Assembly (NCBI GenBank): GCA_903906365.1
Contig: CAIVKC010000069.1
Location: 62,001-126,000, forward strand
DNA: 64,000 nucleotides
Source: an uncultured Bacteroidota bacterium
Lineage (GTDB): Bacteria; Bacteroidota; Bacteroidia; Chitinophagales; Chitinophagaceae
Direction of reading: 5' to 3'
Every line of letters begins with the position of its first letter. Positions within the stretch are counted from its first letter, which is position 1. This document shows positions 20,540 to 34,871 of this stretch, piece after piece. The translations under genes and the position numbers were made by a program. Below the pieces are notes generated by a model, which had not been told where the DNA came from, searched no databases, and saw only the letters and a program-made list of their open reading frames with translations.

Positions 20540-22159
20540 ATGGCTGAAGTTATTTTGATGCCCCGTTTGAGTGATACTATGACTGAAGGTGTTATAGCCG
20601 CATGGCATAAAAAAGTGGGCGACCAGGTGAAAAAAGGAGATCTGCTGGCAGAAGTGGAAACTGACAAGGCCACCATGGACCTTGAAAGTTACAAGGACGG
20701 CACCCTGCTTTTTACCGGTACAGAGAAAGGTGGGAAAATCCAGGTTAACGACCTGCTGGCCATTATCGGAACACCCGGCGAAGACATCTCCACTTTAATA
20801 CCGGGAGCTGCAAAAACACCCTCTGCCCAGCCTGCACCAGCCCCTTCCCCTGCTCCTGCAGCAGCACCTGTGGCTGAAGCGGTCAAATCCGACGAGGCCA
20901 TACTTATGCCCAGGCTGAGTGATACCATGACTGAAGGTGTGATCGCCGAATGGCATAAGAAAGTGGGTGAACAGGTAAAGAAAGGAGATGTGCTGGCTGA
21001 TATTGAAACCGATAAGGCCACCATGGAACTGGAAAGTTATAAGGAAGGGACCCTGCTGTATGTGGGGGCCAAAAAGGGAGAGAAAATAGTGGTAAATGAC
21101 CTGCTTGCCATCATAGGGGATGAAAAGAAGGTGGATGTACAAAAAATAATTGCTGCTTCAAAAAATACCCCGGTCGCCGGTGCTGCCCCTGCTGCACAGG
21201 CCCAGGCCCCGGCCCCCGGCCCGGAAGCAAAAGGGGGTCCTCAGGCCATGGCCCCTGCTCCCGGACAGGTGGCGGAAAACGGCAGGCTCAAAGCCTCCCC
21301 GCTGGCCAAGAAGCTGGCCGCCGAAAAGGGCATCGATATTTCCAGGGTGGCCGGAAGTGGTGACGGTGGAAGGGTCACCAAAAAGGATATAGACAACTTC
21401 ACCCCACAGAAGGTGGCTGCATCCGCCGCCGCACCTGCCCCTGCCGGTATTGCAGTGCCTTCAGTTACTTCCGGGGAGATCAGTTTTGAGGAAGTACCTG
21501 TTTCCCAGATGAGAAAGATTATTGCCAAACGCCTGGCAGAAAGCAAATTTACGGCCCCCCATTTTTATCTGACCATCAGCATAGATATGGATAATGCCGT
21601 TGCAAGCAGGGCCAAGCTCAATGAAGTATCCCCGGTAAAAATCTCATTTAATGACCTGGTGCTCAAAGCAACTGCGGTTGCCCTGAAAAAGCATCCTGCG
21701 GTAAACAGCAGCTGGCTGGGCGATAAAATAAGGATTAATCATCATGTGAATATCGGGGTGGCCGTTGCCGTGGAAGATGGCCTGCTGGTTCCCGTCGTGC
21801 GATTTGCAGATGGCAAGTCCTTGTCGCAGATAGCGGTTGAGGTGAAAGAATTCGCACAAAAAGCCAAGAATAAGAAGCTTCAGCCCAGTGACTGGGAAGG
21901 CAGTACCTTCACGATTTCCAATCTGGGTATGTTTGGCATAGATGAATTCACTGCCATAATCAATCCACCGGATGCCTGTATTCTGGCAATCAGCGCCATT
22001 CAGCAAATACCGGTAGTTAAGCAAGGGGCGGTGGTGCCCGGACAGGTCATGAAACTGACCCTGAGCTGCGACCACCGGGTAGTGGATGGAGCCACCGGTG
22101 CCGCATTCCTGCAGACGCTCAAGGGCCTGCTGGAAGAGCCGCTAAGACTGCTGATCTAG
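20540..22159 (+). CDS. pdhC: Pyruvate dehydrogenase complex E2, dihydrolipoamide acetyltransferase, two lipoyl domains
   Basis: E2 is the core of the pyruvate dehydrogenase complex and moves the acetyl group from lipoamide to CoA. The 539 residues contain two lipoyl domains that are near copies of each other (about 2-76 and 120-195), each with the DKATM motif whose Lys (residue 43 in the first) carries lipoate. Ala/Pro-rich linkers follow, then a peripheral subunit-binding domain (ASPLAKKLAAEKGIDISRV, about 252-287) and the catalytic domain with SCDHRVVDG near the end. Genes for E1 and E3 are not nearby. The motif content and the lipoyl type fit pyruvate rather than 2-oxoglutarate dehydrogenase, though the substrate is not proven. 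Confidence 0.93.
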   Translation: MAEVILMPRLSDTMTEGVIAAWHKKVGDQVKKGDLLAEVETDKATMDLESYKDGTLLFTGTEKGGKIQVNDLLAIIGTPGEDISTLIPGAAKTPSAQPAPAPSPAPAAAPVAEAVKSDEAILMPRLSDTMTEGVIAEWHKKVGEQVKKGDVLADIETDKATMELESYKEGTLLYVGAKKGEKIVVNDLLAIIGDEKKVDVQKIIAASKNTPVAGAAPAAQAQAPAPGPEAKGGPQAMAPAPGQVAENGRLKASPLAKKLAAEKGIDISRVAGSGDGGRVTKKDIDNFTPQKVAASAAAPAPAGIAVPSVTSGEISFEEVPVSQMRKIIAKRLAESKFTAPHFYLTISIDMDNAVASRAKLNEVSPVKISFNDLVLKATAVALKKHPAVNSSWLGDKIRINHHVNIGVAVAVEDGLLVPVVRFADGKSLSQIAVEVKEFAQKAKNKKLQPSDWEGSTFTISNLGMFGIDEFTAIINPPDACILAISAIQQIPVVKQGAVVPGQVMKLTLSCDHRVVDGATGAAFLQTLKGLLEEPLRLLI

Positions 22160-22207
22160 TCTGTTAAGCCCGGCATACAAAAAATTTAACAATAAAGACA
22201 TAAACCT

Positions 22208-22235
22208 AAAAGTCCTGCGTATACGCAGGACTTTT
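22208..22235 (+). terminator. Perfect 28-bp palindrome, likely terminator after the E2 gene
   Basis: AAAAGTCCTGCGTA is followed immediately by its exact reverse complement, 48 bp after the stop codon. A hairpin ending in CTTTTGCTTTT fits an intrinsic terminator for the E2 transcript. Because the arms are symmetric it would work similarly in both directions. Confidence 0.75.
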
Positions 22236-22502
22236 GCTTTTGAGTGTGCGAAGGAAACATGCAGTAAAACAAAGAATTAGAAAAATCCGATAAAATAGTA
22301 TACTTTTGCTTTAATTACATTCCTTTCTATCACCTTTCGTGACAACCTTCCTTCCGTGTAACCACTTTAGAAGGTAATTGATGAGCAGACAGGTTGTTTT
22401 CAAAATCCTTACAGCATTTATACAAGTAAAGCACAAGGTCTTACCGCTGGTACAGCTCAATGTTAGCCGTAGCCGGTTTTATTTCATTTAAAAAACAAAC
22501 AA
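22236..22502 (+). promoter_or_regulatory. Promoter and long 5' leader of the DEAD-box helicase gene
   Basis: TACTTTTG at 22301-22308 matches the Bacteroidota -7 box and leaves a leader of about 185-190 nt before the TTG start at 22503. No open frame fills it. Long leaders are typical of cold-induced RNA helicase mRNAs in other bacteria, so regulation through this leader is plausible but unproven. Confidence 0.5.
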
Positions 22503-23759
22503 TTGTCATTCGAAAATTTGCAACTCATTGAGCCCTTATTAAGGGCTGTGAAACAGGAAGGTTATACCCATCCTACTCCCATCCAGGAAAAATCCATACC
22601 CATTATTCTCAGCCGCAGGGACCTGCTCGGCTGCGCACAGACCGGAACCGGAAAAACGGCAGCATTTGCCATTCCGATGTTACAGATTCTGCACCAGGAA
22701 AAGTCATTGCCAAACAATACACGCGGTATCAAGGCCCTGATCCTGACGCCAACCCGTGAACTGGCCATTCAGATCGAAGAAAGTTTTGCCGCCTATGGCA
22801 AATATGCCGGTCTTCGTCACACGGTAATATTCGGGGGCGTTCCACAGGGAAGGCAAACCCAGATCCTTCAGCGCGGCGTGGATATCCTGGTAGCCACACC
22901 AGGCCGTTTGCTTGACCTGATTGACCAGGGTTATATCAGCCTTCGCGAGATACAGCTTTTTGTGCTCGATGAGGCAGACCGCATGCTTGACATGGGTTTT
23001 GTCCATGACGTCAGGAAGATTGTTTCCAAATTGCCGCAGAAAAGGCAGACCCTTTTCTTCTCGGCAACCATGCCGCCGGAAATTCAGAAACTGGCAAATA
23101 CCATTCTGGTCAACCCGGAAAAAGTAGAGGTTACCCCGGTTTCCTCCACGGCAGATACCATACAGCAACAGCTTTACTTTGTCGAAAAGAAAGATAAAAA
23201 ATCATTGTTGCTTCATTTGCTAAAAAACAATGCCATAAATACGGCACTGGTTTTTACCAGGACCAAACACGGCGCAGACAAGGTGGCCCAGGAACTGAAC
23301 CGGGCCGGAGTGCGTGCGGAAGCCATTCATGGAAACAAATCACAAAATGCACGTCAGGCTGCATTATCAAACTTCAAAAACCAGCAGACAAGGGTATTGG
23401 TGGCAACCGACATCGCCGCCAGGGGTATAGATATTGATGAACTTTCCCATGTCATCAACTACGAATTGCCCAATGTACCTGAAACCTATGTGCACAGGAT
23501 CGGAAGAACCGGAAGGGCGGGCGCCAGCGGTATTGCCCTGTCCTTTTGTGACCAGGAGGAAAAGGAATTTCTCAGGGATATACATAAAGTCATCCTGAAA
23601 TCCATACCCGTGGTAGAGGATCATCCCTTTCCCATGAGCAATACCTCATTGGTCCAATATCCTTCGATGCACAAAAAGCCGGTAAACCAGCGGAACAGTT
23701 CTTCCAACGGTTACAGGGGCGTACAACGTTCCTGGTCGGGCAGTCAAAGAAATCATTGA
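22503..23759 (+). CDS. RhlE-type DEAD-box RNA helicase
   Basis: This ATP-dependent RNA helicase (418 residues) probably remodels structured RNA or ribosome precursors. The motifs appear in order: Q motif ([12 protein letters not shown]), AQTGTGKT (residues about 45-52), PTREL, GG, TPGR, DEAD ([11 protein letters not shown]), SAT, then ARGIDI and [10 protein letters not shown] in the second RecA domain. A short basic, Ser- and Asn-rich tail (from about 395) ends the protein. The subfamily call RhlE is by overall layout. It starts at TTG (22503), where MSFENL gives the usual N-terminus, and is preceded by a long untranslated leader. Confidence 0.93.
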
Positions 23760-23780
23760 TTCCAAACCTGTTTTCATAAT

Positions 23781-23812
23781 AAAAAAAGTCCAGCACAGGC
23801 GGGACTTTTTTT
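23781..23812 (+). terminator. Intrinsic terminator after the DEAD-box helicase gene
   Basis: An 11-bp perfect stem (AAAAAAAGTCC with GGACTTTTTTT) with a 10-base loop stands 21 bp after the stop codon and ends in a run of T. The rest of the spacer up to 24061 shows nothing else I can identify. Confidence 0.85.
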
Positions 23813-24061
23813 ATTTCCGGGCTACCAACCCAAGCAAGCAATCCGGGAGTGTTCAACCCTTTCCCCAGTAAAAACCATTCCTGGCTACCTGGAAAATATA
23901 GGGAGTTCGGGGCGGGTCAAAAATATGCCAGGACCTTAAAGGAGCTAACTTTACCCTGGGGGCAACATAGCGGGATATCCATGATGGACATATAACCTCC
24001 GGACTTACGCCCATTCCCCTTACCCTTTGGGGTCCGGATCATTAAAAAAAAGGATTTGATC

Positions 24062-24859
24062 ATGAAAATTGTCTGCCTGGTCGTTTTGGTACTGGCCTGC
24101 GGGAGCCTAAGGGCTGCTTCGGATTCAGGGATAAATAAGATATTGAGCAGGGAAACCTATGAAAAACTATTCCCTAATCACCATGCCATCTATAGTTACA
24201 GGAACCTGATAAAGGCTGCGGCGGCATTTCCGGGCTTCGCCAATGAAGGAAGTCTGGAAACCCGGCTGGGAGAGCTGGCGGCCTTTTTTGCAAACATAGC
24301 CCACGAAACAACGGGAGGATGGTCGCTGGCAAAGGGCGGCCCCTATGTATGGGGGCTATACTACACCGAGGAGCAGGCCTGTAAAGATGGCCACTGCGTG
24401 CAATATAATACGGCCGGCACCAGCAGTTACCTGCCCGTTGAGGGAAAATCCTATTTTGGCAGGGGGCCTATTCAGCTGACTTATGCCTACAATTATGGAC
24501 TGGCCGGAGAGGAACTGGGGCTTCCGCTGTTGAAAAACCCGGAATTGGTATCCAGCGATGGGGTCATTGCCTTTAAAACCGCCCTTTGGTTTTGGATGAG
24601 GGCCCAAAAACCCAAACCTTCCTGTCATGACGTCATCTGCGGTAACTGGAAGCCCGCCGAGGAAGACCTCAAACTAAACCGCAGACCGGGCTTTGGCATG
24701 ATCATCAACATCATCAACGGCGGGCTGGAATGCAACACCACCGATCCGGGTCTCCAGGTCAAACGGGAGGAACGGATTGGTTTTTATAAATGGTTTGCTC
24801 AGATACTCCATATACAGGTACCGGATAACTGTGACTGTAAGGGAATGACCTCCTACTGA
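24062..24859 (+). CDS. Secreted GH19-family chitinase
   Basis: GH19 enzymes cleave chitin or related beta-1,4-GlcNAc chains with inversion. The 265-residue protein starts at the ATG at 24062 with an export signal (MKIVCLVVLVLACGSLRA); cleavage after LRA or lipid attachment at the Cys after VLA are both possible. The catalytic domain fills the rest: AHETTGGW contains the general-acid Glu, followed by KSYFGRGPIQLTYAYNYG and FGMIINIINGGLEC, all standard GH19 segments. Four or more Cys near the middle and end may form disulfides. No carbohydrate-binding module or type IX sorting domain is attached. It stands alone. Confidence 0.9.
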   Translation: MKIVCLVVLVLACGSLRAASDSGINKILSRETYEKLFPNHHAIYSYRNLIKAAAAFPGFANEGSLETRLGELAAFFANIAHETTGGWSLAKGGPYVWGLYYTEEQACKDGHCVQYNTAGTSSYLPVEGKSYFGRGPIQLTYAYNYGLAGEELGLPLLKNPELVSSDGVIAFKTALWFWMRAQKPKPSCHDVICGNWKPAEEDLKLNRRPGFGMIINIINGGLECNTTDPGLQVKREERIGFYKWFAQILHIQVPDNCDCKGMTSY

Positions 24860-24936
24860 AGGATCAGCCAACCAGGGGGCGACCCGCTTCAATAAGTGAA
24901 TAATTGTATAAATTACAGAGGTAAAATCTTCCCAAG

Positions 24937-25317
24937 ATGGAACTCAGCAACGCACTGAACTGGTTTGAAATTCCAGTGGCAGATTTCGATCGCGCCAAAA
25001 AATTTTACGAAACTATTTTTGACTACCAGATGCCTGAAAACAGGATGGGACCTACGCGGATGGGTTTTTTCCTTTATGACTTTAAGGGTGGAAAGGTCGG
25101 AGGTGCCATTTGCGAAGGTCCCAATTACCAGCCTTCACGCCAGGGATCGCTCGTGTATTTTAACTGCCAGCCTGATTTGCAGGTGGTGCTCGACAGGGTG
25201 GAAAAAGCCGGAGGAGAGATTCTTACCAGAAAATCCCAGCTGTCCCCTGATCTGGGTTACATCGCCTATATTACTGATTCTGAAAACAACCGCATTGCAC
25301 TTCATTCCATGGGATAA
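24937..25317 (+). CDS. VOC-superfamily (glyoxalase-fold) protein
   Basis: The 126 residues form one vicinal-oxygen-chelate unit: NWFEIPVADFDRAKKFYETI at the N-terminus, VYFNCQPDLQVVLDRVEKAGG in the middle, and DLGYIAYITDSENNRIALHS at the end, where the Glu/Asp and His positions usually bind the metal. Members of this subgroup are usually annotated as putative lyases or bleomycin-resistance-like proteins, and the substrate is unknown. The gene lies 73 bp before the UbiA-PKS run, so a role in that pathway (for example ring modification) is possible but not shown. Confidence 0.85.
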   Translation: MELSNALNWFEIPVADFDRAKKFYETIFDYQMPENRMGPTRMGFFLYDFKGGKVGGAICEGPNYQPSRQGSLVYFNCQPDLQVVLDRVEKAGGEILTRKSQLSPDLGYIAYITDSENNRIALHSMG

Positions 25318-25390
25318 CAGGAAACGCGAATCGGAACCCCGGCAGGGACGCCCGTTAATTGTTAGCCCGATAAATTTTTGCCTTCTCCAG

Positions 25391-26245
25391 ATGATTAAAC
25401 GTTCGACTTTTCAGCTGCTGCGCATTCATTTTTCCTTTTTTCTGATGCCGGTTTACTGGTTTGCCATCAGTCAGATTGAGCATAAGAACTGGCCCCGCGC
25501 GATCCTCATCTTCATTATTTTGCACCTGCTTGTATATCCTGCCAGCAACGGTTATAATAGCTATATGGACCGGGATCAGGGAAGTATCGGCGGCTTAAAA
25601 AATCCCTCCCTTCCCACCAGGCAGCTTTTCTGGATTTCACTGGGGATGGATATTGCGGCCGTCTGCCTGGGACTGTTTATAAGCCCCTATTTTACGGCCG
25701 GCCTCACCGCCTATATTCTTGCCTCCCGGGCTTACAGTTACAGGGGGATCCGCCTAAAAAGCCATCCGGTCACCGGGTACCTCACCGTCGTCCTATTCCA
25801 GGGGGCGCTGACTTTTTTCCTGGTTTATCATGGCGCCCAGTATGGCCTCACCCTCAATGTGCCCCCTGAAGGCATGCTGGCCAGTTCCCTGCTGGTGGGT
25901 GGATTCTATCCGCTCACGCAGATTTACCAGCATGAGGCCGATCTTAAGGACGGGGTGAAAACCATCAGTTACCTGTTGGGGTACCGGGGAACTTTTGTGT
26001 ATGCGGCCCTTGTTTATAGCCTGGCTTTTGGGGTACTGTCCTATTACCTGCTTTCCTCCCTAGAAATAAATGAATTTTTTGTCCTGGCAACCGCTATGAT
26101 TCCCGTTATCGTTTATTTTCTAATATGGGCTGCCCAGGTCTGGAAAGACAAATCTAAAGCAGATTATGAACATACCATGCGTATGAATATAATCGCTGCC
26201 ACCTGCACCAACCTGGGGTTTATTGCCGTTCAGGTCATGCAATAG
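25391..26245 (+). CDS. UbiA-family prenyltransferase of the type III PKS locus
   Basis: UbiA enzymes are membrane-embedded and attach isoprenyl groups to aromatic acceptors. The 284-residue protein has about eight helices. The first Asp-rich motif is NSYMDRDQGSIGG near residue 55, matching NxxxDxxxD; the second, HEADLKDGVKT near residue 180, is a variant of DxxxD. The frame is open further upstream, but that part overlaps the VOC gene in another frame, and MIKRSTFQLLRIHFSFF is the natural N-terminus. It lies 61 bp before the type III PKS gene, so its acceptor could be the PKS product; this is inference from position. Confidence 0.85.
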   Translation: MIKRSTFQLLRIHFSFFLMPVYWFAISQIEHKNWPRAILIFIILHLLVYPASNGYNSYMDRDQGSIGGLKNPSLPTRQLFWISLGMDIAAVCLGLFISPYFTAGLTAYILASRAYSYRGIRLKSHPVTGYLTVVLFQGALTFFLVYHGAQYGLTLNVPPEGMLASSLLVGGFYPLTQIYQHEADLKDGVKTISYLLGYRGTFVYAALVYSLAFGVLSYYLLSSLEINEFFVLATAMIPVIVYFLIWAAQVWKDKSKADYEHTMRMNIIAATCTNLGFIAVQVMQ

Positions 26246-26306
26246 CAGGTATATCCCATCCAATATGAAGCATGTTTCGTAAATTAACCTGACAGAAAAT
26301 ACTATT

Positions 26307-27395
26307 TTGAGTAAAATTATTTCAATAGGAAAAGCGGTTCCTGCATTCAGGCATAACCAGGAAGACATTCTGAATTTCATGCAGAAGGTGTTTGCCATGG
26401 AGGAAACCGACAACAGGAAATTAAGATTCCTTTACCACCAGAGTGCTATAAGCCACCGTTTTTCTGTAATAGGCGATTATAGCCGGCCCGTCAACGAATG
26501 GAAATTCTACCCGCAATCCGAGCACCTCGAACCATTCCCCTCCCTTGAACTCAGAATGGTCCATTATCAAAAGCACGCTGCGGCCCTTTCGGTAGATGCC
26601 ATCAGGAATTGCATTTCCGGGAAAATCCAGCCAAAAGACATTACTCATCTTATCACGGTCAGTTGTACCGGCATGAGTGCGCCAGGCCTTGATCTGCAGG
26701 TTGTTGAACTGATGGATCTTCCAAAAAATATTTTCCGGACCTCTATCAATTTCATGGGATGTTACGCTGCCATACATGCCCTGAAACTGGCTGATGTAAT
26801 CTGCAGGTCCACCAGGGGCGCCCGTGTTATAGTCGTATGTACCGAATTATGTACCCTGCATTTTCAGCGGGAACCCACCATGGACAATATTGCATCCAGC
26901 CTCCTTTTCGGGGATGGATCTGCAGCCGCTCTGATTACCAGCGGCGAAGGGGGAGCCAAAGGCATATCCATCTGTGATTTCTATTCCGAAATTTCACCAA
27001 AAGGGAAAAAGGATATGGCGTGGGAACTCTCTTCCTCCGGTTTCCTGATGACCCTGAGCGGTTACATTCCTGACCTCATTGAAGAGGATTTCGAATCCCT
27101 TACCGGCCGAGCACTGAAACAAAATAACCTGACCTGCCAGGAGATAACGCACTGGTGTATGCATCCCGGCGGGAAAAAAATCCTGGAAGCCATACACAAA
27201 AGCCTTCATTTTTCAGGGGGAGAACTGGAAGACAGCTATGAGGTCCTGAAGGAATACGGCAATATGTCCAGCCCCAGTATCCTGTTTGTACTGGAAAAAA
27301 TCATGAATAAACTCGATTATAATAAGCCAAATACCATTTTTGGTGCAGCTTTCGGCCCGGGTTTAACCATGGAAACCTTCCTGGCCAAAACGTAA
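26307..27395 (+). CDS. Type III polyketide synthase (chalcone synthase-like)
   Basis: This soluble homodimeric-type ketosynthase uses acyl-CoA starters and malonyl-CoA to build resorcinol, pyrone or related rings. The 362 residues carry the complete Cys-His-Asn triad: Cys152 in NFMGCYAAIHA, His286 in CMHPGGKK, and Asn319 in YGNMSSPSIL. The end GAAFGPGLTMETFLAK is the classical chalcone synthase C-terminal segment. Translation probably starts at TTG, as no ATG precedes MSKIISIGKAVPAFRH in frame. It is the core gene of the run UbiA-PKS-methyltransferase-oxidoreductase. The starter unit cannot be read from sequence; a fatty acyl starter is likely by analogy with other bacterial enzymes. Confidence 0.95.
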   Translation: MSKIISIGKAVPAFRHNQEDILNFMQKVFAMEETDNRKLRFLYHQSAISHRFSVIGDYSRPVNEWKFYPQSEHLEPFPSLELRMVHYQKHAAALSVDAIRNCISGKIQPKDITHLITVSCTGMSAPGLDLQVVELMDLPKNIFRTSINFMGCYAAIHALKLADVICRSTRGARVIVVCTELCTLHFQREPTMDNIASSLLFGDGSAAALITSGEGGAKGISICDFYSEISPKGKKDMAWELSSSGFLMTLSGYIPDLIEEDFESLTGRALKQNNLTCQEITHWCMHPGGKKILEAIHKSLHFSGGELEDSYEVLKEYGNMSSPSILFVLEKIMNKLDYNKPNTIFGAAFGPGLTMETFLAKT

Positions 27396-27468
27396 TCGGA
27401 ATGGCAGGGATCGGGCCCTGCTTTTATGGACCCGGTTGCCCCCCTCCTTTCCAAATCAACGCTGACAC

Positions 27469-28170
27469 ATGGATTTTTCAACACGTTCATATCAAACAGA
27501 GTTACTGGATGACCCGAAGGTCCCGGCGGACGATATTGTGCAAAACATGAAAGAGCTTGATTTCATCAATACTTTCCTGGGTGGTCATGCAGTAACCCTG
27601 AGCGGGTTCAGGAACCTGTTAACCGGTCAACGGGAAATAACTGTTTGCGAAATTGGCTGCGGGGGGGCTGATAATTTGATGGCCTTAAGGAAATGGACCC
27701 TCTCCCATGGGATTTCAGCAAGATTCATTGGTATAGATATCAATCCACACTGCCTGGAAGTGGCTAGAAGGAGATTTCCTACAGACTGCGGGGAGTTCAT
27801 TTTATCCGATTACCAACAGGTGGACTTTGGGGATCAAAAGCCGGACCTCCTGTTTTCGTCGCTTTTTTGTCACCATTTTACCCAGGAGCAGTTGCTGATC
27901 ATGCTTCAATGGATGAGGGATAACTCAACAATCGGGTTTTTCATTAATGACCTGCACCGGCATCCATTCGCCTACTATTCCATACGCGCGCTGACAGGTC
28001 TTTTCTCCAGGTCCTACCTGGTAAAAAATGACGCACCACTTTCCGTGCTGAGGGGATTTACCAAAAAGGAATGGGATGGCCTTCTGCAGGATTCTGGAAT
28101 CAGGCATTATTGCCTGCAGTGGAAATGGGCCTTCAGGTGGCTGATAACGGTAAAGCATATTGATGTATGA
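27469..28170 (+). CDS. SAM-dependent methyltransferase of the type III PKS locus
   Basis: The 233 residues are a class I methyltransferase: the glycine-rich SAM loop is VCEIGCGGADNL near residue 55, followed by the acidic end of strand 2 (FIGIDINPHCLE) and the segment DLLFSSLFCHHFTQEQ. A conserved N-terminal region ends in DDIVQNMKELDFIN. Its stop overlaps the start of the FAD oxidoreductase gene by four bases (ATGA), so the two are co-translated. The likely role is methylation of the polyketide ring carbon or a hydroxyl group, by analogy with the streptomycete phenolic-lipid operon (srsA-srsB-srsC), although SrsB belongs to a different methyltransferase family. Confidence 0.88.
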   Translation: MDFSTRSYQTELLDDPKVPADDIVQNMKELDFINTFLGGHAVTLSGFRNLLTGQREITVCEIGCGGADNLMALRKWTLSHGISARFIGIDINPHCLEVARRRFPTDCGEFILSDYQQVDFGDQKPDLLFSSLFCHHFTQEQLLIMLQWMRDNSTIGFFINDLHRHPFAYYSIRALTGLFSRSYLVKNDAPLSVLRGFTKKEWDGLLQDSGIRHYCLQWKWAFRWLITVKHIDV

Positions 28171-29348
28171 ATAAACAATCAGTATCTATGGAAGGAAAAC
28201 CCGGGAGTGGCCCGCCGAACCGGTTTACGGATGCTGTCATTGCCGGTGGCGGGCTGGCCGGACTGGCGCTTTCCATACAACTGGCCAGGGCCGGATACAG
28301 TGTGGTACTGTTTGAGAAGGAAAAGTATCCATTTCATAAAGTGTGTGGTGAATATATCAGCCTGGAAAGCTGGAATTTTCTGGAAGAACTTGGATTGCCC
28401 CTCAGCGACTGGAAACTGCCGGTCATAAAAAGACTGATGGTCTCATCGCCGAACGGAAGGGTGCTCAGCCAGGACCTTCCATTGGGTGGTTTTGGGATCA
28501 GCCGGTTCAAACTGGATGCCTGCCTGGCCGACATAGCCCGCCAGGCAGGAGTGTGCGTTATGGAAGAGGCCAGGGTTACAGATATCCATTTCCAAGACTC
28601 CTTGTTTTCAGTCCAGGCGGCAGGAACAGTATACCAGGCAAAAATAGCCTGCGGCACTTTTGGAAAGAGAAGTAACCTCGATATCAGATGGAAAAGAAAA
28701 TTTGTTGAACCGGCCCCCGGCAAACTCAATAATTACGTGGGCGTAAAATATCATATTGAAATATCTTTTCCCCAGGATTTGATTGCCCTGCATAATTTCG
28801 AAAACGGTTACTGTGGAATTTCAAGGATCGAAGATAATCGCTATTGCCTCTGTTATCTAACCACCGCTGCTAATCTTAAAAGGTGCGGCAATTCCATCAA
28901 AAAGATGGAGGAACAGATAGTGAGAAAGAACCCGCTGCTGGAGGAGATATTTTCAACAGCGAATTTCCTGTACGGGCAGCCACTGACTATTTCCCAGATC
29001 AGTTTTGCAAAAAAGACCCAGATTGAAGATCATGTGCTTTTAATCGGCGATGCCGCGGGTTCCATCACCCCTTTATGCGGCAATGGAATGAGTATGGCCC
29101 TGCATGGCAGTAAGGTCTGCTTTACCCTTATTGACCAATTTCTGCAGAACCGGATTACACGCGACCAAATGGAACAACAATACCGCGATACTTGGAATAG
29201 GCTCTTCGGAAATCGCCTGCAGACTGGAAGGATCATACAGCGATTTTTTGGTAACCGGATACTGACAAACTTTTTATTGAAAATCATGAAGCCATTCCCC
29301 AAATTAGTTACATATTTGATACGACAAACCCACGGCGATCCATATTGA
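28167..29348 (+). CDS. FAD-dependent oxidoreductase of the type III PKS locus
   Basis: This 393-residue flavoprotein has the N-terminal dinucleotide-binding motif VIAGGGLAGLALSIQLARAG (about 23-42), the segment KYPFHKVCGEYIS typical of the geranylgeranyl reductase / aromatic hydroxylase superfamily, and the second FAD motif LLIGDAAGSITPLCGNGMSM near residue 290. It could hydroxylate the polyketide ring to a quinol or quinone, or reduce an isoprenyl chain; both fit the superfamily and the prenyltransferase neighbour. It overlaps the methyltransferase by four bases and precedes the DUF5723 gene by 7 bp. Confidence 0.9.
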   Translation: MNKQSVSMEGKPGSGPPNRFTDAVIAGGGLAGLALSIQLARAGYSVVLFEKEKYPFHKVCGEYISLESWNFLEELGLPLSDWKLPVIKRLMVSSPNGRVLSQDLPLGGFGISRFKLDACLADIARQAGVCVMEEARVTDIHFQDSLFSVQAAGTVYQAKIACGTFGKRSNLDIRWKRKFVEPAPGKLNNYVGVKYHIEISFPQDLIALHNFENGYCGISRIEDNRYCLCYLTTAANLKRCGNSIKKMEEQIVRKNPLLEEIFSTANFLYGQPLTISQISFAKKTQIEDHVLLIGDAAGSITPLCGNGMSMALHGSKVCFTLIDQFLQNRITRDQMEQQYRDTWNRLFGNRLQTGRIIQRFFGNRILTNFLLKIMKPFPKLVTYLIRQTHGDPY

Positions 29349-29355
29349 GGACTTT

Positions 29356-30795
29356 ATGAAAATTACAATTTGCATTTTCACGGCGTGTATGGCAGTTTTC
29401 AATACTCTTTCAGGGCAGGATTATCATGCCGTTCAGGGATCCTCGTTTGCAGGAAGCCTGGGGGTATCCAATAATCCGGCTTCCATCACCAATACCCCCT
29501 ACTCCTGGGATATTAACATTTTGGCAGTCCAGCTAAAAACAATAACCAACGGATATCGGATCGATAACTACTCCCTGCTCACCTCTGCCAGCCAATCAAC
29601 GGCCAGCATGAACACCGGTGATTTCCATCGATACCTCGACTTGAACTTTAATCTAAACCTAATCAATACCAGGATTGCCCTTAACCGGACGCATACCCTG
29701 GCTTTTGGGGTAAACCTCCGTGGAAACGGGCGGGTTCTTACAAACAGGTATTTTTATGCCGACTCACTGCCAAGCGTAGACCAGTTCCTGGGATCCAACC
29801 TGAACCGGACCCTGGAGGGCCATTTCAGTTCCAGCAGCTGGCTGGAAGCATTTGCCACCTACAGCCAGACACTCTGGGATGATGACCAGGGAAGACTCAA
29901 CGGGGGCATCACCCTTAAGGCCACCCGCGGCCTTTCCGGGGCTTTTGCCCACCTGGTGGATTTCAGCTCGGTACCCACACCCAACGGAGGAGACACTTCA
30001 TTTACAGTCAACTCGGTTTCGGGTAAATATGGTTATTCCAATAATTACGACCAATGGCAAAATAGCAGGCCATCCAGCACCAACATCCGTGATTTTATCA
30101 CCAATACAAGGGGTGGATTCTGCTTCGACCTGGGATTGGAGTACCTGGTAAAAACCCAGGAAGTCAGTACCGTCTATGATGAGGATAATTTTTTTGATTA
30201 CGACTGGAAATTCGGTCTGTCACTGCTCGATGTAGGATATAACCAATACAGGTATGGTAATAAGAGCAGTATGTTTACCTCCCCTTCACCTCAGGTAACG
30301 GGTGCACTCCTTAATCAAAAATTCGATTCGCTTTCCTCTCTGGCAGATTTCAACGACAGTCTCTCCGGCATTGTCCGTGGCTTTTCCCCACTGGGGGGCA
30401 AATTCAGGGTAGAAAACCCAACCAGGCTGGTCATCAATGTAGACCGGGCCTTCCCCGCCGATTTTTATGTCAACGCAGAAATTTCCCTTAATATTCACCC
30501 TTCCCCGGAAAATAGTAACAGGTATTTTACCCAACAAATCAACCTGATTACCCTCACTCCCAGGTGGGAGACCAGGCGCTGGGGTTTTTACCTGCCCCTT
30601 CAATATACCATAGAAGGGCATTTTATGGCCGGGGCAGCCCTTAAGGCGGGGCCGCTGCTGCTGGGAATACATAACCTGGCTAACCTGTTTTTTAAAAACA
30701 GGATTCAAAACGGGGGCGGATACCTTGCCCTTCAGCTACGGGCACCCAGGAACCTCAGGGCCAGGGCTGATAAAAGGCTGGATTGCCCCAATTAG
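29356..30795 (+). CDS. DUF5723-type outer-membrane beta-barrel protein
   Basis: The 479-residue protein has a signal peptide (first 20 residues, ending LSGQ) and a barrel-like pattern of alternating aromatic strands. Recognisable features are the N-terminal GSSFAGSLGVSNNPASI and the GINLRGNGR-like turn typical of DUF5723, a family of Bacteroidota outer-membrane proteins of unknown role related in style to PorV/PorP. It begins 7 bp after the FAD oxidoreductase gene and is probably in the same transcript. That suggests, without proof, a link between the PKS product and the outer membrane. Confidence 0.78.
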   Translation: MKITICIFTACMAVFNTLSGQDYHAVQGSSFAGSLGVSNNPASITNTPYSWDINILAVQLKTITNGYRIDNYSLLTSASQSTASMNTGDFHRYLDLNFNLNLINTRIALNRTHTLAFGVNLRGNGRVLTNRYFYADSLPSVDQFLGSNLNRTLEGHFSSSSWLEAFATYSQTLWDDDQGRLNGGITLKATRGLSGAFAHLVDFSSVPTPNGGDTSFTVNSVSGKYGYSNNYDQWQNSRPSSTNIRDFITNTRGGFCFDLGLEYLVKTQEVSTVYDEDNFFDYDWKFGLSLLDVGYNQYRYGNKSSMFTSPSPQVTGALLNQKFDSLSSLADFNDSLSGIVRGFSPLGGKFRVENPTRLVINVDRAFPADFYVNAEISLNIHPSPENSNRYFTQQINLITLTPRWETRRWGFYLPLQYTIEGHFMAGAALKAGPLLLGIHNLANLFFKNRIQNGGGYLALQLRAPRNLRARADKRLDCPN

Positions 30796-30915
30796 CAGCC
30801 ACGGGACGGGAGACTGACATCCTCCCTGCAAGCGGCAATCGATATCAATGGGGCCTGCCCTTTTAGGGGGCACCCCCTGTAAAACATTTACGGTCGAAAA
30901 AATGTTATTGTAACA

Positions 30916-31287
30916 ATGGAAGCAGCAAAAAAGAAAACACTGGTTCTGGGGGCCTCAGACAATCCGGAACGCTACAGTTATCTCGCCGTAAACAGATTGC
31001 GGGGCAAAGATTATCCCGTTGTAGCCATTGGCGGAAAAAAAGCGACCGTTTCAGATGTTGAAATAACCACTGAAAAACCTCCATTTAAAGATATTGATAC
31101 CGTATCGATTTATCTGAACCCGGCCCATCAACCCGCCTATTACCAGTACATTCTTTCTCTGAACCCTAAAAGGATCATTTTCAATCCGGGAGCAGAAAAC
31201 CCGGTTTTTTATAACATGGCCCTTGAAAAGGGAATTAAGCCGATGGAAGCATGCACCCTTGTTTTATTAAGCACCGGCCAGTACTGA
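30916..31287 (+). CDS. CoA-binding domain protein (YccU-like)
   Basis: The 123 residues form a single Rossmann-like CoA-binding domain: TLVLGASDNPERYSYLAVNR at the N-terminus, then YPVVAIGGKK, VSIYLNPAHQPAYYQYI and IFNPGAENPVFY. Related domains occur in succinyl-CoA synthetase and protein acetyltransferases, but stand-alone members have no defined function. It appears to be a single-gene unit, with 120 bp to the upstream gene. Confidence 0.88.
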   Translation: MEAAKKKTLVLGASDNPERYSYLAVNRLRGKDYPVVAIGGKKATVSDVEITTEKPPFKDIDTVSIYLNPAHQPAYYQYILSLNPKRIIFNPGAENPVFYNMALEKGIKPMEACTLVLLSTGQY

Positions 31288-31744
31288 AGCAATAATTCAC
31301 CCCTCTGCACGTTCTAATTTGCTGCCCATAGAAGGCCGTCTGCCGGCACGGGTGGTTGTTGATTGTACCCTTTCATTACTCATCCTTAAAAACTTACCCC
31401 GATGAATTATCAGGAATTACGCCGTTCTCTGGCCATTAAACTCTTGTCTGTCAGGAAAATCAGTCTAACCAACCTGTTCCCAACACCACAGGCTTTCGAA
31501 GGCACACAAGGCCTCCGGCATGCATGGGGAGAGTCTAAGGATGAATCATCCGAAAAAAACGGACCCGCGCCACACCAGCCCTTTATCCTGAAAAAATAAA
31601 CAGCACGCTCCGGTTTCCAGGGCCCGGATCAGCCGCAAAAGGCTCATGAAGAGGCCTTGAAACCCAGGCGGGTTCATAAAAGTTTAACATACACGTCATT
31701 TTGCCATTATTGGGTTTTTCGGTAAATTCGAAAAACCCATTTTT
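31288..31744. other. Spacer between the CoA-binding protein and ykuK-like genes
   Basis: These 457 bp show no convincing gene. A 65-codon frame at 31402-31599 (starting MNYQELRRSLAIKLL) has no family resemblance and no promoter box; I leave it uncalled. The only clear structure is the inverted repeat at 31711-31739. Confidence 0.5.
31711..31739 (+). promoter_or_regulatory. Perfect inverted repeat overlapping the ykuK-like promoter
   Basis: TGGGTTTTTCG and its exact complement flank a seven-base centre (GTAAATT). The element contains TAAATTCG (31723-31730), close to the -7 box, and ends 5 bp before the ATG at 31745, with TTTT in between. It could be an operator covering the promoter, or a terminator for upstream transcripts. 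The symmetry is certain; the role is open. Confidence 0.6.
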
Positions 31745-32218
31745 ATGTTATGGCGAAAATTTAATGGCGACCAGATTGAACTGCCCATAGTAGACGCCGT
31801 TGAGCAGGCGATACGGCGGGAAACCGAAAAAGGCTTTCATTTGAAAGTTTGTGTAGGTACGGATTCACAGGTTAAAGGAGCTGAAACAGAATTTGCGACC
31901 GTTATTGTTTTTTTAAGGGAGGGGCACGGAGGTTTTATGTTCATCCACAATGAAAAAACGAAGACAAAGTACACCATCAAGGAAAGAATGCTGGTGGAGG
32001 TTGCCAAAAGTATTGAAATTGCCTATGAGCTCTGCAACCTGTTTAACAAGTACGATGTAGACATGGAAGTCCATGCCGACATTAACACCAACCCCCATTT
32101 CAAGAGCAACGATGCGCTGAAGGAAGCGATGGGCTATATCCTGGGCATGGGGTTCGCATTCAAAGCAAAGCCGGAGGCGTTTGCCAGCAGCAGCTGCGCC
32201 AACAAGGTGGTTAACTAA
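31745..32218 (+). CDS. YkuK-like ribonuclease H-fold protein (DUF458)
   Basis: The 157 residues match the YkuK/DUF458 family, which has an RNase H-like fold: VCVGTDSQVKG near residue 38 supplies the first acidic residue, YTIKERMLVEVAKSI follows, and VEVHADIN-type sequence (MEVHADINTNPHFKSNDAL) gives the later Asp. No activity is established for the family. It is a single gene whose promoter region carries a perfect 11-bp inverted repeat ending 5 bp before the start codon. Confidence 0.88.
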   Translation: MLWRKFNGDQIELPIVDAVEQAIRRETEKGFHLKVCVGTDSQVKGAETEFATVIVFLREGHGGFMFIHNEKTKTKYTIKERMLVEVAKSIEIAYELCNLFNKYDVDMEVHADINTNPHFKSNDALKEAMGYILGMGFAFKAKPEAFASSSCANKVVN

Positions 32219-32260
32219 GGCAAATAGGGTCAGCGTTTATAAGGGACTGTTGTGAAGATT

Positions 32261-32881
32261 TCACGACCCTGGAGAAAGTCTCCCCGCAAATTCAGCATTC
32301 ATTTCACCTATCAGCTGCAAAATTTTATCTTTTCCCATTTTCTTTACCGTGCTTGTCACAAAATGCTGTGGTAAAAACTGCCAGGTCTCGCGCATTTTCT
32401 GGAGGAAATTTTTTAAATTCAGACTGACGGTTCGCTGGTTTTCTTTATCCGCTTTGGTAAACACCAGGCAAAACGGTATGTTCCACTTACCCAGGTTATT
32501 GACGAATTCCAGGTCATTTTTCTGGGGGCTATGCCGGCTGTCAATCAGAACAAATACATTCATCAGGCTCTCCCGCTTGCGCAGGTAATCTTCGATCATG
32601 ATTTCCCACTTTTTCCGCTGGGAAATGGAAACCTTGGCAAATCCATAACCCGGCAGATCCACGATGTACCATTCACCGTTGATCAGAAAATGGTTGATCA
32701 ACTGGGTTTTCCCCGGCGTATTGGATGTTTTCGCCAGTTTTTCATTATTGCAGAGCATATTGATGAGTGAAGACTTTCCCACATTGCTCCTTCCAATAAA
32801 TGCATACTCCGGTTTGTCAGGCGGGGGGCACTGGGTATATTCCGGGCTGCTGATGATATAGGTCGAAGATTTTATTATCAT
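32261..32881 (-). CDS. yihA: Ribosome biogenesis GTPase EngB (YihA/YsxC)
   Basis: This small essential-type GTPase acts late in 50S subunit assembly. The protein shows the G1 loop GRSNVGKSSLIN, the switch I region SNTPGKTQ, G3 DLPGYGFAKVS, G4 FTKADK and a family-typical end. The frame is open to 32944, but the family N-terminus is MIIKSSTYIISSPEY, so the start is placed at 32881, giving 206 residues. A TATCTTG sequence on the minus strand at 32912-32906 lies upstream of that start and inside the longer frame, which supports the later start. Confidence 0.95.
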   Translation of the reverse strand: MIIKSSTYIISSPEYTQCPPPDKPEYAFIGRSNVGKSSLINMLCNNEKLAKTSNTPGKTQLINHFLINGEWYIVDLPGYGFAKVSISQRKKWEIMIEDYLRKRESLMNVFVLIDSRHSPQKNDLEFVNNLGKWNIPFCLVFTKADKENQRTVSLNLKNFLQKMRETWQFLPQHFVTSTVKKMGKDKILQLIGEMNAEFAGRLSPGS

Positions 32882-33042
32882 GGTACAATTCAATGAATAA
32901 GTACGCAAGATAGTGAAGATACCAGGAGCAGGCCCGATAAGCATGGGCTAACAGCTTAAATTAGCCGGGCACCTGTTGAATTAGGGGGTGGATTTTGCCC
33001 ATCGGGCCTGAAACAGCCTGCCGCCAACTCAATTCTCTGCCT

Positions 33043-33050
33043 TAACTTTG
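33043..33050 (+). promoter_or_regulatory. -7 promoter box directly ahead of menG
   Basis: TAACTTTG matches TAnnTTTG exactly and is separated from the ATG at 33055 by four bases. With the usual distance from box to start site, the mRNA would begin at or within a few bases of the start codon. Confidence 0.6.
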
Positions 33051-33054
33051 GCCC

Positions 33055-33798
33055 ATGTCAAAATACAGTCATGATTCGATCATGCCCTTCAAGGATTCCA
33101 AAATGGATAAAAAGGGGCAGGTGGCAGAAATGTTTGACCAGATTGCCTTTCGTTACGACTTCCTGAACCGGTTCCTCAGCGGGGGCATCGACAGGTTCTG
33201 GCGCCGCAGGGCCATCAGGGAACTGCAGGGCATCCATCCCGGGTTTATCCTGGATGTGGCCACCGGAACGGGCGATGTCGCCATTATGATGGCCAAATAC
33301 CTTCACCCCCGGAAAATTACCGGAATTGACATTTCCGAAGGAATGATGGCCATTGGAAGGGAAAAGATTGCCAAACTGGGGCTTCAGGGGACGATTGAAC
33401 TCCTAAAAGGGGACAGCGAATCCATTCAATTTGAAGACAACCGTTTTGATGCCGTCACCGTGGCTTTTGGGGTGAGGAATTTCGAAAATCTGGAAAAAGG
33501 GTTACACGAAATGCTGCGGGTGCTTAAACCGGGTGGCAAACTGGTCATTCTGGAATTCTCAAAACCAAGATCCCGGGCCTTTAAAGGCATCTACAATCTG
33601 TATATGAAGCGGATTACGCCGGGCATCGGCAAGCTGGTTTCCCGACATGGGGAAGCCTACCAATACCTCAACGAATCGGTACGGGCTTTCCCCGAAGGAA
33701 ATGACCTGTTGGAAATCATTGAAAAAGCCGGTTTTAAGAGCACCTACCTGCGCAGGCTCAGTCTGGGAATCTGCACCCTTTATTGCGGACAGAAATAA
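33055..33798 (+). CDS. ubiE: Demethylmenaquinone methyltransferase
   Basis: This enzyme (MenG/UbiE) does the last step of menaquinone synthesis, C-methylating demethylmenaquinone with SAM. The 247 residues include VAEMFDQIAFRYDFLNRFLS, the SAM loop LDVATGTGDVAI near residue 64, and the UbiE signatures YDxxN-like and VAFGVRNFENLEKGL. The N-terminal MSKYSHDSIMPFKDS is shared by Bacteroidota homologues, so the first ATG is kept, although it lies only four bases after a TAACTTTG promoter box; the transcript may be leaderless. It is followed by porT, an arrangement often found in this phylum. Confidence 0.96.
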   Translation: MSKYSHDSIMPFKDSKMDKKGQVAEMFDQIAFRYDFLNRFLSGGIDRFWRRRAIRELQGIHPGFILDVATGTGDVAIMMAKYLHPRKITGIDISEGMMAIGREKIAKLGLQGTIELLKGDSESIQFEDNRFDAVTVAFGVRNFENLEKGLHEMLRVLKPGGKLVILEFSKPRSRAFKGIYNLYMKRITPGIGKLVSRHGEAYQYLNESVRAFPEGNDLLEIIEKAGFKSTYLRRLSLGICTLYCGQK

Positions 33799-34118
33799 GA
33801 TGGCCAATCCTTTTCCCCGGTAAAATAGGGATCAGGCCTCGGCGGACCCCCTCCGCCGGTTCTTTTGGAAGACCAGGGGCGGCTTTTTTGGCCCCCCAAT
33901 ACATGGATAAGGCTGCACGGCAAGCCTCCCCCGGCAGATATAACGGCCGGTTTTGTTAACCAAGCCTTAAATATTGGGCTATTAAATTGGGTTTCAACAA
34001 TTATTCCAAGCTTCCCTGCGTTAAGTGCTTGTTCAGGCACCCGGTTTTTGCCTCTGGGATAGCCATGATATATATTTATCTTGAAAATATATCATAATTA
34101 ACCGATTTACAGCTACTT
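33799..34118. other. Spacer between ubiE and porT
   Basis: These 320 bp carry no gene. A GC-rich hairpin (CGGCGGA, loop, TCCGCCG; 33840-33858) followed by GTTCTTTTGG could end the ubiE transcript, though the T tract is poor. The last 60 bp are AT-rich, as expected of the porT promoter, and contain two copies of ATATATC-like sequence. Confidence 0.4.
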
Positions 34119-34871
34119 ATGATTTTTAATAGAACCATGCAGCGCATTAAAAAAGCCTCTTACGGCCTATTTCTTATTGGGTGCTTTTCTGCCTTGTTTT
34201 CCCTGGAAGGAAAAGCCCAGCTGCGCGATAACGAAAACCTCCCCGACCATGACGGCAAATTTTACCACCTGGGCATCGCCCTCATTTATAATAATTCCCA
34301 TTTTCAGGTAAGCGCCCATCCTTCTTTTCTGCAAAGTGACAGTGTGCTGTCGGTAAACCCACTCAATACGGGTGGATTTGGGCTGGCGGGTCTGCACACT
34401 TTCCGGATCAGTGACCACCTGGAATTTCGAGTGGTATTTCCCCAGCTAATGTTCTCTTACAAGAACCTGAGCTATAATGTAAAATATCCATCCAGCGGGG
34501 AGACCTACAAGGCAACCAAACAGGTGGAATCGATTTTACTGGGGTTCCCCACTCAGGTAAAATTCCTCTCAGACCGTATCCATAATTTTCGTGTTTATAT
34601 GCTTGGCGGGGTCAATTACCAGTATGACCTGGCTTCCAACGCTTCTTCCAGAAAAGCGCAGAACCTGGTCAAACTCAAACCCTATGATTTCAGCATTGAG
34701 GCGGGCATCGGTTTTCAGTTTTATTTTCCGGTATTTATACTGTCGCCGGAACTCAAAATAAGCGATGGACTGATCAATATCCACAGCAGGGACCCGAACC
34801 TCATTTATTCGAGCAGCATCGACAAACTCAATTCCAGGATGGTCGTATTCTCGCTTATCTTCGAAGGGTAA
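34119..34871 (+). CDS. porT: PorT-family outer-membrane protein of type IX secretion
   Basis: PorT is an outer-membrane beta-barrel needed for the type IX secretion system, which exports proteins with C-terminal sorting domains across the outer membrane. The 250-residue protein has a signal peptide ending near KAQ (about residue 34 from the first ATG; a second ATG lies at 34137). The family features are FYHLGIALIYNNSHFQV, the middle FGLAGLHTFRISDHLEFR, and the C-terminal barrel ending in MVVFSLIFEG, with an aromatic residue near the end. Its position after ubiE is conserved in Bacteroidota. No other core T9SS gene lies in the window. Confidence 0.87.
   Translation: MIFNRTMQRIKKASYGLFLIGCFSALFSLEGKAQLRDNENLPDHDGKFYHLGIALIYNNSHFQVSAHPSFLQSDSVLSVNPLNTGGFGLAGLHTFRISDHLEFRVVFPQLMFSYKNLSYNVKYPSSGETYKATKQVESILLGFPTQVKFLSDRIHNFRVYMLGGVNYQYDLASNASSRKAQNLVKLKPYDFSIEAGIGFQFYFPVFILSPELKISDGLINIHSRDPNLIYSSSIDKLNSRMVVFSLIFEG

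Follow-up and report, generated by a model that had tools for sequence, protein, structure and literature searches.

Related gene cassettes and the locus in the window

Operons combining a type III polyketide synthase (PKS), a methyltransferase (MT) and an oxidoreductase lead to polyketide quinones (PMC9927152; this and the papers below are cited for those parts of them that were available). The locus compared with them here comprises genes for a UbiA-superfamily membrane protein, a type III PKS, an MT and a flavin adenine dinucleotide-dependent flavoprotein (FAD), and lies in a 64,000-nucleotide stretch (the window) of an uncultured bacterium of the Chitinophagaceae, Bacteroidota (contig CAIVKC010000069.1). 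Like the window, srsABC of Streptomyces griseus holds PKS, MT and oxidoreductase in one operon, and pkqABC of Mycobacterium smegmatis and Streptomyces sp. MNU77 has them in the same order; both differ from the window in that the available part of the source names no prenyltransferase, and they were likened to it by gene content, not by sequence (PMC9927152). The same three enzyme kinds, but with the PKS gene last, are encoded by the hierridin genes hidABC of cyanobacteria, which in the available text come without UbiA except for one Raphidiopsis cluster with a prenyltransferase (PMC8086630), and by mtr-fdo-t3pks of Planctomycetota, where the available text has no UbiA and alkylresorcinol products were shown for the PKSs (PMC10896814). 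In the loseolamycin region of Micromonospora endolithica, UbiA-family and MT genes lie two to three genes from the losA PKS, but an acyl-CoA dehydrogenase replaces the flavoprotein, and the proposed route (losA plus host starters) leaves prenylation unmentioned in the part available (PMC7587189).

There is precedent for UbiA near a type III PKS; a UbiA held so strictly across Bacteroidota was not met in the open-licence literature, where no description of the UbiA-PKS-MT-flavoprotein set in Bacteroidota was recognised, and the main texts of two published lists of Bacteroidota type III PKS clusters leave UbiA or a prenyltransferase unmentioned. The new element is the dedicated UbiA, the PKS-MT-flavoprotein cassette being already known (srs, pkq, hierridin). 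Plant cannabinoid-type biosynthesis also combines a type III PKS ring with a UbiA-type aromatic prenyltransferase and is not known to have an MT-flavoprotein pair; it serves as an analogy only, and no membership is claimed.

The four genes (25391–29348, all on the plus strand; Table 1) look like one pathway because relatives keep all of them together, or most of them when they are scattered. They are predicted to make a phenolic lipid or polyketide quinone that carries a prenyl chain, and this reading is given a probability of roughly 0.6. An initial annotation of the window had described five same-strand genes here, including an outer-membrane protein (OMP) gene, and its coordinates and spacing were exact (UbiA-PKS 61 bp, PKS-MT 73 bp, MT-FAD 4-bp overlap, FAD-OMP 7 bp). 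The UbiA gene was taken to start at the ATG at 25391, upstream of which the mechanical open reading frame (ORF) already begins, because homologue alignments begin at residue 1–4 in nearly all matches. The PKS gene starts with TTG, in the same TTGAGTAAAAT context in the four relatives compared. The genome of the window has one PF00195 match and six PF01040 matches. A scan for promoters and terminators found fewer sites here than in shuffled sequence, and its result was not used.

Table 1 Features of the locus and its surroundings (window positions)
Feature	Position	Strand	Evidence
GH19 (glycoside hydrolase family 19) chitinase gene, upstream of VOC gene	24056–24859		Pfam E 3.2e-78
VOC (vicinal oxygen chelate)/glyoxalase-like gene, outside pathway	24937–25317	+	PF00903
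UbiA-superfamily membrane protein	25391–26245	+	PF01040 68.9 bits (cut-off 34.2); motif residues N56, D60, D62, Q180, D184
Type III PKS	26307–27395	+	PF00195 and PF02797 above cut-off; triad C152-H286-N319, Trp239
Class I S-adenosylmethionine-dependent MT, C- or O-type	27469–28170	+	PF13649 above cut-off; third in conserved order
FAD-dependent oxidoreductase, likely ring hydroxylase	28167–29348	+	PF01494 above cut-off
OMP neighbour, signal-peptide-like start, DUF5723-related	29356–30795	+	Window protein without Pfam match; 7-bp gap

Conservation of gene order

The family sample comprised 147 genomes of the window's family, with a PKS match at E ≤ 0.001 in 81 and at ≥ 240 bits in 66; 60 family loci were opened, weaker PKS matches included. 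The named loci are the best 80 of at least 569 stretches encoding a relative; many of them come from the same genomes as family loci, and the two sets of counts must not be summed. The phylum sample consisted of 395 Bacteroidota genomes (some PKS match at E ≤ 1e-20 in 179), seven of which also belong to the family sample.

Conservation of the gene order had been set beforehand as one check on the proposed pathway. When searched in relatives, the order was kept, the full UbiA-PKS-MT-FAD succession being found by a strict automatic rule in 64 of the 80 named loci, and the reading survives. Overlong ORF starts explain seven of the misses, in which the genes are still ordered (L114, L123, L133, L154, L160, L161, L163), contig ends explain six (L106, L157, L126, L147, L150, L158), and in L116 UbiA and FAD are each split into two ORF pieces; the remaining misses are L164, without an MT match, and L173, with a weak partial MT close to a contig end. 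The neighbourhood typical of srs/pkq/hid-type cassettes, MT and flavoprotein genes adjoining the PKS gene, is present in the window and in the same number of named loci. Where pairs could be compared, spacing was ≤ 100 bp in 73/74 (UbiA-PKS), 64/73 (PKS-MT) and 67/70 (MT-FAD) named loci, and the UbiA and PKS ORFs overlap in 55/74, a count overstated where mechanical starts lie too early. Homologue clusters in the 60 family loci covered the PKS in 60, MT in 54, FAD in 53, UbiA in 52 and OMP in 10. The first four genes are conserved far more than chance would allow; carriers include Niastella yeongjuensis DSM 17621 and Segetibacter koreensis DSM 18137.

Co-inheritance across genomes

Within the family sample, UbiA and PKS (the latter at ≥ 240 bits) occurred together in 64 genomes, PKS only in 2, UbiA only in 1 and neither in 80; the genome with UbiA only (G033) carries PKS pieces on short contigs, one of them beside UbiA. 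In the phylum sample, the UbiA profile scored 303–440 bits in 26 genomes, the next scores being ≤ 161 bits, and PKSs of the UbiA-linked clade were found in the same 26 of 395 genomes once family f24 was set aside; four f24 PKSs have scores like those of the clade PKSs (up to 421.9 bits), and the family was excluded because its three tree rows (L216–L218) fall in another clade. Nineteen of the 26 genomes are outside the window's family; nine of these are represented in the tree, and family and score decided the assignment of the other ten, so that the clade split is partly our choice. UbiA and PKS were unlinked in six of the 26 (G298, G306, G523, G215, G330, G287; separate contigs or > 300 kb), and all six unlinked UbiA copies have the family motifs. 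Fisher values for UbiA-PKS co-occurrence, which ignore kinship, were 3.9e-38 (family) and 2.9e-41 (phylum).

In whole-genome searches, the flavoprotein was present in 7/7 PKS genomes without a same-strand FAD neighbour and in 0/7 controls without PKS; six of the relocated copies are far off or on another contig, and that of G287 is about 3 kb away on the opposite strand. The MT, searched in six genomes, adjoined the PKS in G111 and was found elsewhere in G028 and G287 (controls 0/7), sitting beside the relocated flavoprotein in G028. MT linkage is looser than flavoprotein or UbiA linkage.

UbiA-family protein

The protein clearly exceeds the superfamily cut-off (Table 1). Canonical aromatic prenyltransferases of the MenA, UbiA and ChlG types carry the motifs NDxxDxxxD and DxxxD, whereas NSYMDRDQG and QHxxD were found here. 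The initial annotation had credited the protein with its first Asp-rich motif: N56-x3-D60-x-D62 is indeed there, but with Gly where the canonical motif ends in Asp. In the second motif, Gln180 replaces the first Asp, a position where the archaeal UbiA 4od4 has Asp, and D184 is kept. No NCBIfam model was reached by the window protein; of the other five UbiA proteins of the genome, three obtained specific names (heme O synthase, EboC and UbiA-like polyprenyltransferase), one a generic prenyltransferase model and one none. A search of plasmid records with the UbiA query gave no match.

The altered metal-binding motifs allow the reading that the protein handles another acceptor or lipid and does not prenylate the PKS product in the usual way. 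The invariance of Gln180 (16/16 divergent copies, ≥ 95% of 131 rows) and the missing NCBIfam name speak for it; N56, D60 and D184 are nevertheless retained, inheritance is strictly shared with a PKS that forms aromatic rings, and in the alignment the usual second motif is also missing from the heme O synthase of the genome. We regard this alternative as rather unlikely.

Two further UbiA-like groups were seen. The EboC-type protein of the window's own genome (L035, G000:C43) scored 384 bits (cut-off 250). A related subfamily in family f24 (YPVSQ...Q..ED pattern) scored 122–161 bits in 34 phylum-sample genomes, does not enter the 26-genome count, and did not adjoin a PKS in the four loci opened (L279, L280, L281, L282).

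Flavoprotein

Both FAD motifs claimed for the flavoprotein beforehand were recovered (GxGGLxG and GDAAG). Its best NCBIfam score was to the geranylgeranyl (GG) reductase superfamily TIGR02032, at 95.6 bits against a cut-off of 158.8, and profile comparison with the PDB listed flavin halogenases and monooxygenases first, with GG reductases also among the relatives. Close homologues (463–497 bits; L235, L236, L237, L241) have as neighbours an MT and a UbiA-free PKS from another clade.

A GG-reductase-like enzyme that reduces the prenyl chain and leaves the ring without hydroxylation would agree with TIGR02032 as top-scoring model, and with the logic of chlorophyll synthesis, in which a UbiA protein and a GG reductase go together. 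Ring oxidation is favoured because the TIGR02032 cut-off was missed, the leading profile matches are halogenases and monooxygenases, and homologues occur beside UbiA-free PKSs; a prenyl-chain reductase is accordingly considered unlikely.

Type III PKS

An intact Cys-His-Asn triad, as stated in the initial annotation and as in srs/pkq/hid-type cassettes, was found throughout the UbiA-type set of 145 rows, many of which represent the same genomes twice (C152 and H286 in 145/145, N319 in 144 plus one gap). Trp239 is likewise present in 145/145 of these rows and in most other groups, with Phe in the flavobacterial group. In the ArsB/ArsC pair, the switch from resorcinol to pyrone is made by Trp281 in ArsB, which favours resorcinol, versus Gly284 in ArsC, and Met293 moves along (available part of PMC6274091). 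Trp239 and Met248 of the window PKS show the same spacing, a mapping by spacing. Trp239 is taken as an indirect hint of what may be a resorcinol-type product.

If the PKS yielded alkylpyrones, no phenolic ring would be available for quinone hydroxylation. Type III PKSs are promiscuous, and PKS18, which we take to be an alkylpyrone enzyme, ranks in the top four PDB matches; however, PKS18 carries Leu at the position of Trp239 (alignment), and the UbiA, the MT and a flavin hydroxylase would act on an aromatic ring, which makes an alkylpyrone product improbable. The PKS18 tunnel positions compared did not point clearly to one chain length.

A quick maximum-likelihood tree was built from 85 rows (a thinned family set with rows from the phylum and from plasmids added). 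It places every one of the 38 UbiA-linked PKS rows within a single clade of 44 (Shimodaira-Hasegawa-like approximate likelihood-ratio test 98), and the UbiA label needs six changes on it. PKS matches were found in 191 plasmid records, six of which were opened. MT and FAD adjoin the PKS in five of these (Psychrobacter, Deinococcus, Roseomonas, Mesorhizobium, Falsirhodobacter), in the order PKS-MT-FAD in the last four and on the strand opposite the PKS in Psychrobacter; in Novosphingobium, FAD adjoins the PKS and an MT lies some 2 kb away. A UbiA gene is annotated in none of the six stretches, the gene table being incomplete. The PKS-MT-flavoprotein set is more widespread than its UbiA-bearing version.

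The PKS on the Psychrobacter urativorans plasmid (L245), 40.6% identical to that of the window, belongs to the UbiA-type clade without having a UbiA, and lateral transfer is possible. A second Bacteroidota cassette, also without UbiA, has the order FAD-MT-PKS, after which come genes for a FabA-like dehydratase and a ketoacyl synthase (L093, L094, L096, L235, L236, L237, L241), with a short-chain dehydrogenase/reductase in L093, L094 and L096 as well; the PKS of this cassette carries Phe where the window PKS has Trp239.

Proposed pathway

The best reading of the product is a methylated, hydroxylated and prenylated resorcinol-type lipid or quinone. The type III PKS would build a resorcinol-type ring from an acyl thioester and malonyl units, as its family and Trp239 suggest; by analogy with the srs/pkq/hid cassettes, the MT would methylate this ring and the flavoprotein hydroxylate it to a hydroquinone or quinone. 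Attachment of a prenyl chain in the membrane would be the role of the dedicated UbiA, whose prenylation activity we infer. An srsABC-like locus had been proposed initially; its core, a conserved PKS/MT/flavoprotein set with a dedicated UbiA-family gene, held, but the OMP and VOC genes did not as members.

Several observations weigh against the four-gene pathway. In two family genomes (G062, G069) this UbiA is missing although the PKS is there, and UbiA-PKS co-inheritance is partly common descent. The whole-genome MT search gave no match in three of six genomes (G054, 86% complete; G507; G330). Gln180 and Gly stand in the place of canonical Asp residues in UbiA. Trp239 also occurs in PKS groups that lack an MT and a flavoprotein next to them, and its equation with the ArsB residue comes from spacing, not from an alignment. 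The pathway product itself is a prediction from sequence.

Bacteroidota are usually described as menaquinone users. A more specific and tentative idea, possible at best, is a polyketide-derived prenylquinone that would serve as a second lipoquinone or as a lipid antioxidant; a type III PKS would supply its ring, and a new UbiA subfamily with Gln for Asp in the metal site would add the prenyl tail. Given a PKS of this kind in 66/147 sampled family genomes, the product may be widespread among Bacteroidota of soil and freshwater. If the pathway is as proposed, a prenylated bacterial resorcinol would follow the same build logic as the cannabinoids, and a quinone product would extend the polyketide-quinone idea to Bacteroidota.

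Outer-membrane protein gene and chromosomal site

The OMP had initially been labelled DUF5723, but the window protein gave no PF18990 match even at E ≤ 1; one of 20 OMP homologues matched this family (E 1.4e-21). OMP homologues above 300 bits were found in 54/147 family genomes, 28/66 with PKS versus 26/81 without (p = 0.23). Among the named loci, OMP directly follows FAD in 20/80, within ≤ 100 bp in 19.

Around the cassette, the window has genes for pyruvate dehydrogenase E2 (20540–22159), a CoA-binding protein (30916–31287) and a ribonuclease (RNase)-like protein (31745–32218), the E2 and RNase-like labels being our own, from sequence. When 12 PKS-free genomes were opened, seven (L249–L255) had the E2 gene upstream of OMP and six of these had the CoA-binding and/or the RNase-like gene downstream. 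The block 20540–34871 (E2, OMP, CoA-binding, RNase-like, EngB-like; labels partly ours) is found again in relatives, whether or not they carry the cassette.

The cassette therefore occupies a conserved chromosomal site, and it lies where the OMP gene resides in any case, because the E2, CoA-binding and RNase-like genes flank OMP in PKS-free genomes too. The OMP had been counted as part of the pathway; with a distribution independent of the PKS and a synteny of its own, its gene is probably outside it. A five-gene locus with the OMP exporting or anchoring the product, to which the OMP position after FAD in 20/80 named loci would fit, is very unlikely in view of the OMP frequencies with and without PKS (p = 0.23) and of the same flanking genes in 7/12 PKS-free genomes. 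Co-transcription of OMP with the four-gene cassette is likely because gaps are small where FAD and OMP touch, and a later functional link to the pathway may exist.

The VOC gene, suggested as a possible member in the initial annotation, has a homologue in 0/60 family loci and 2/80 named loci and was dropped. The chitinase gene was rejected as a pathway member as well, with a homologue in 0/60 family and 4/80 named loci. Genes c8 (MarR-like) and c7 (epimerase-like) each recur in 11/60 family loci; they were also rejected as members and belong to the site, because they follow the OMP gene where the cassette is absent, too.

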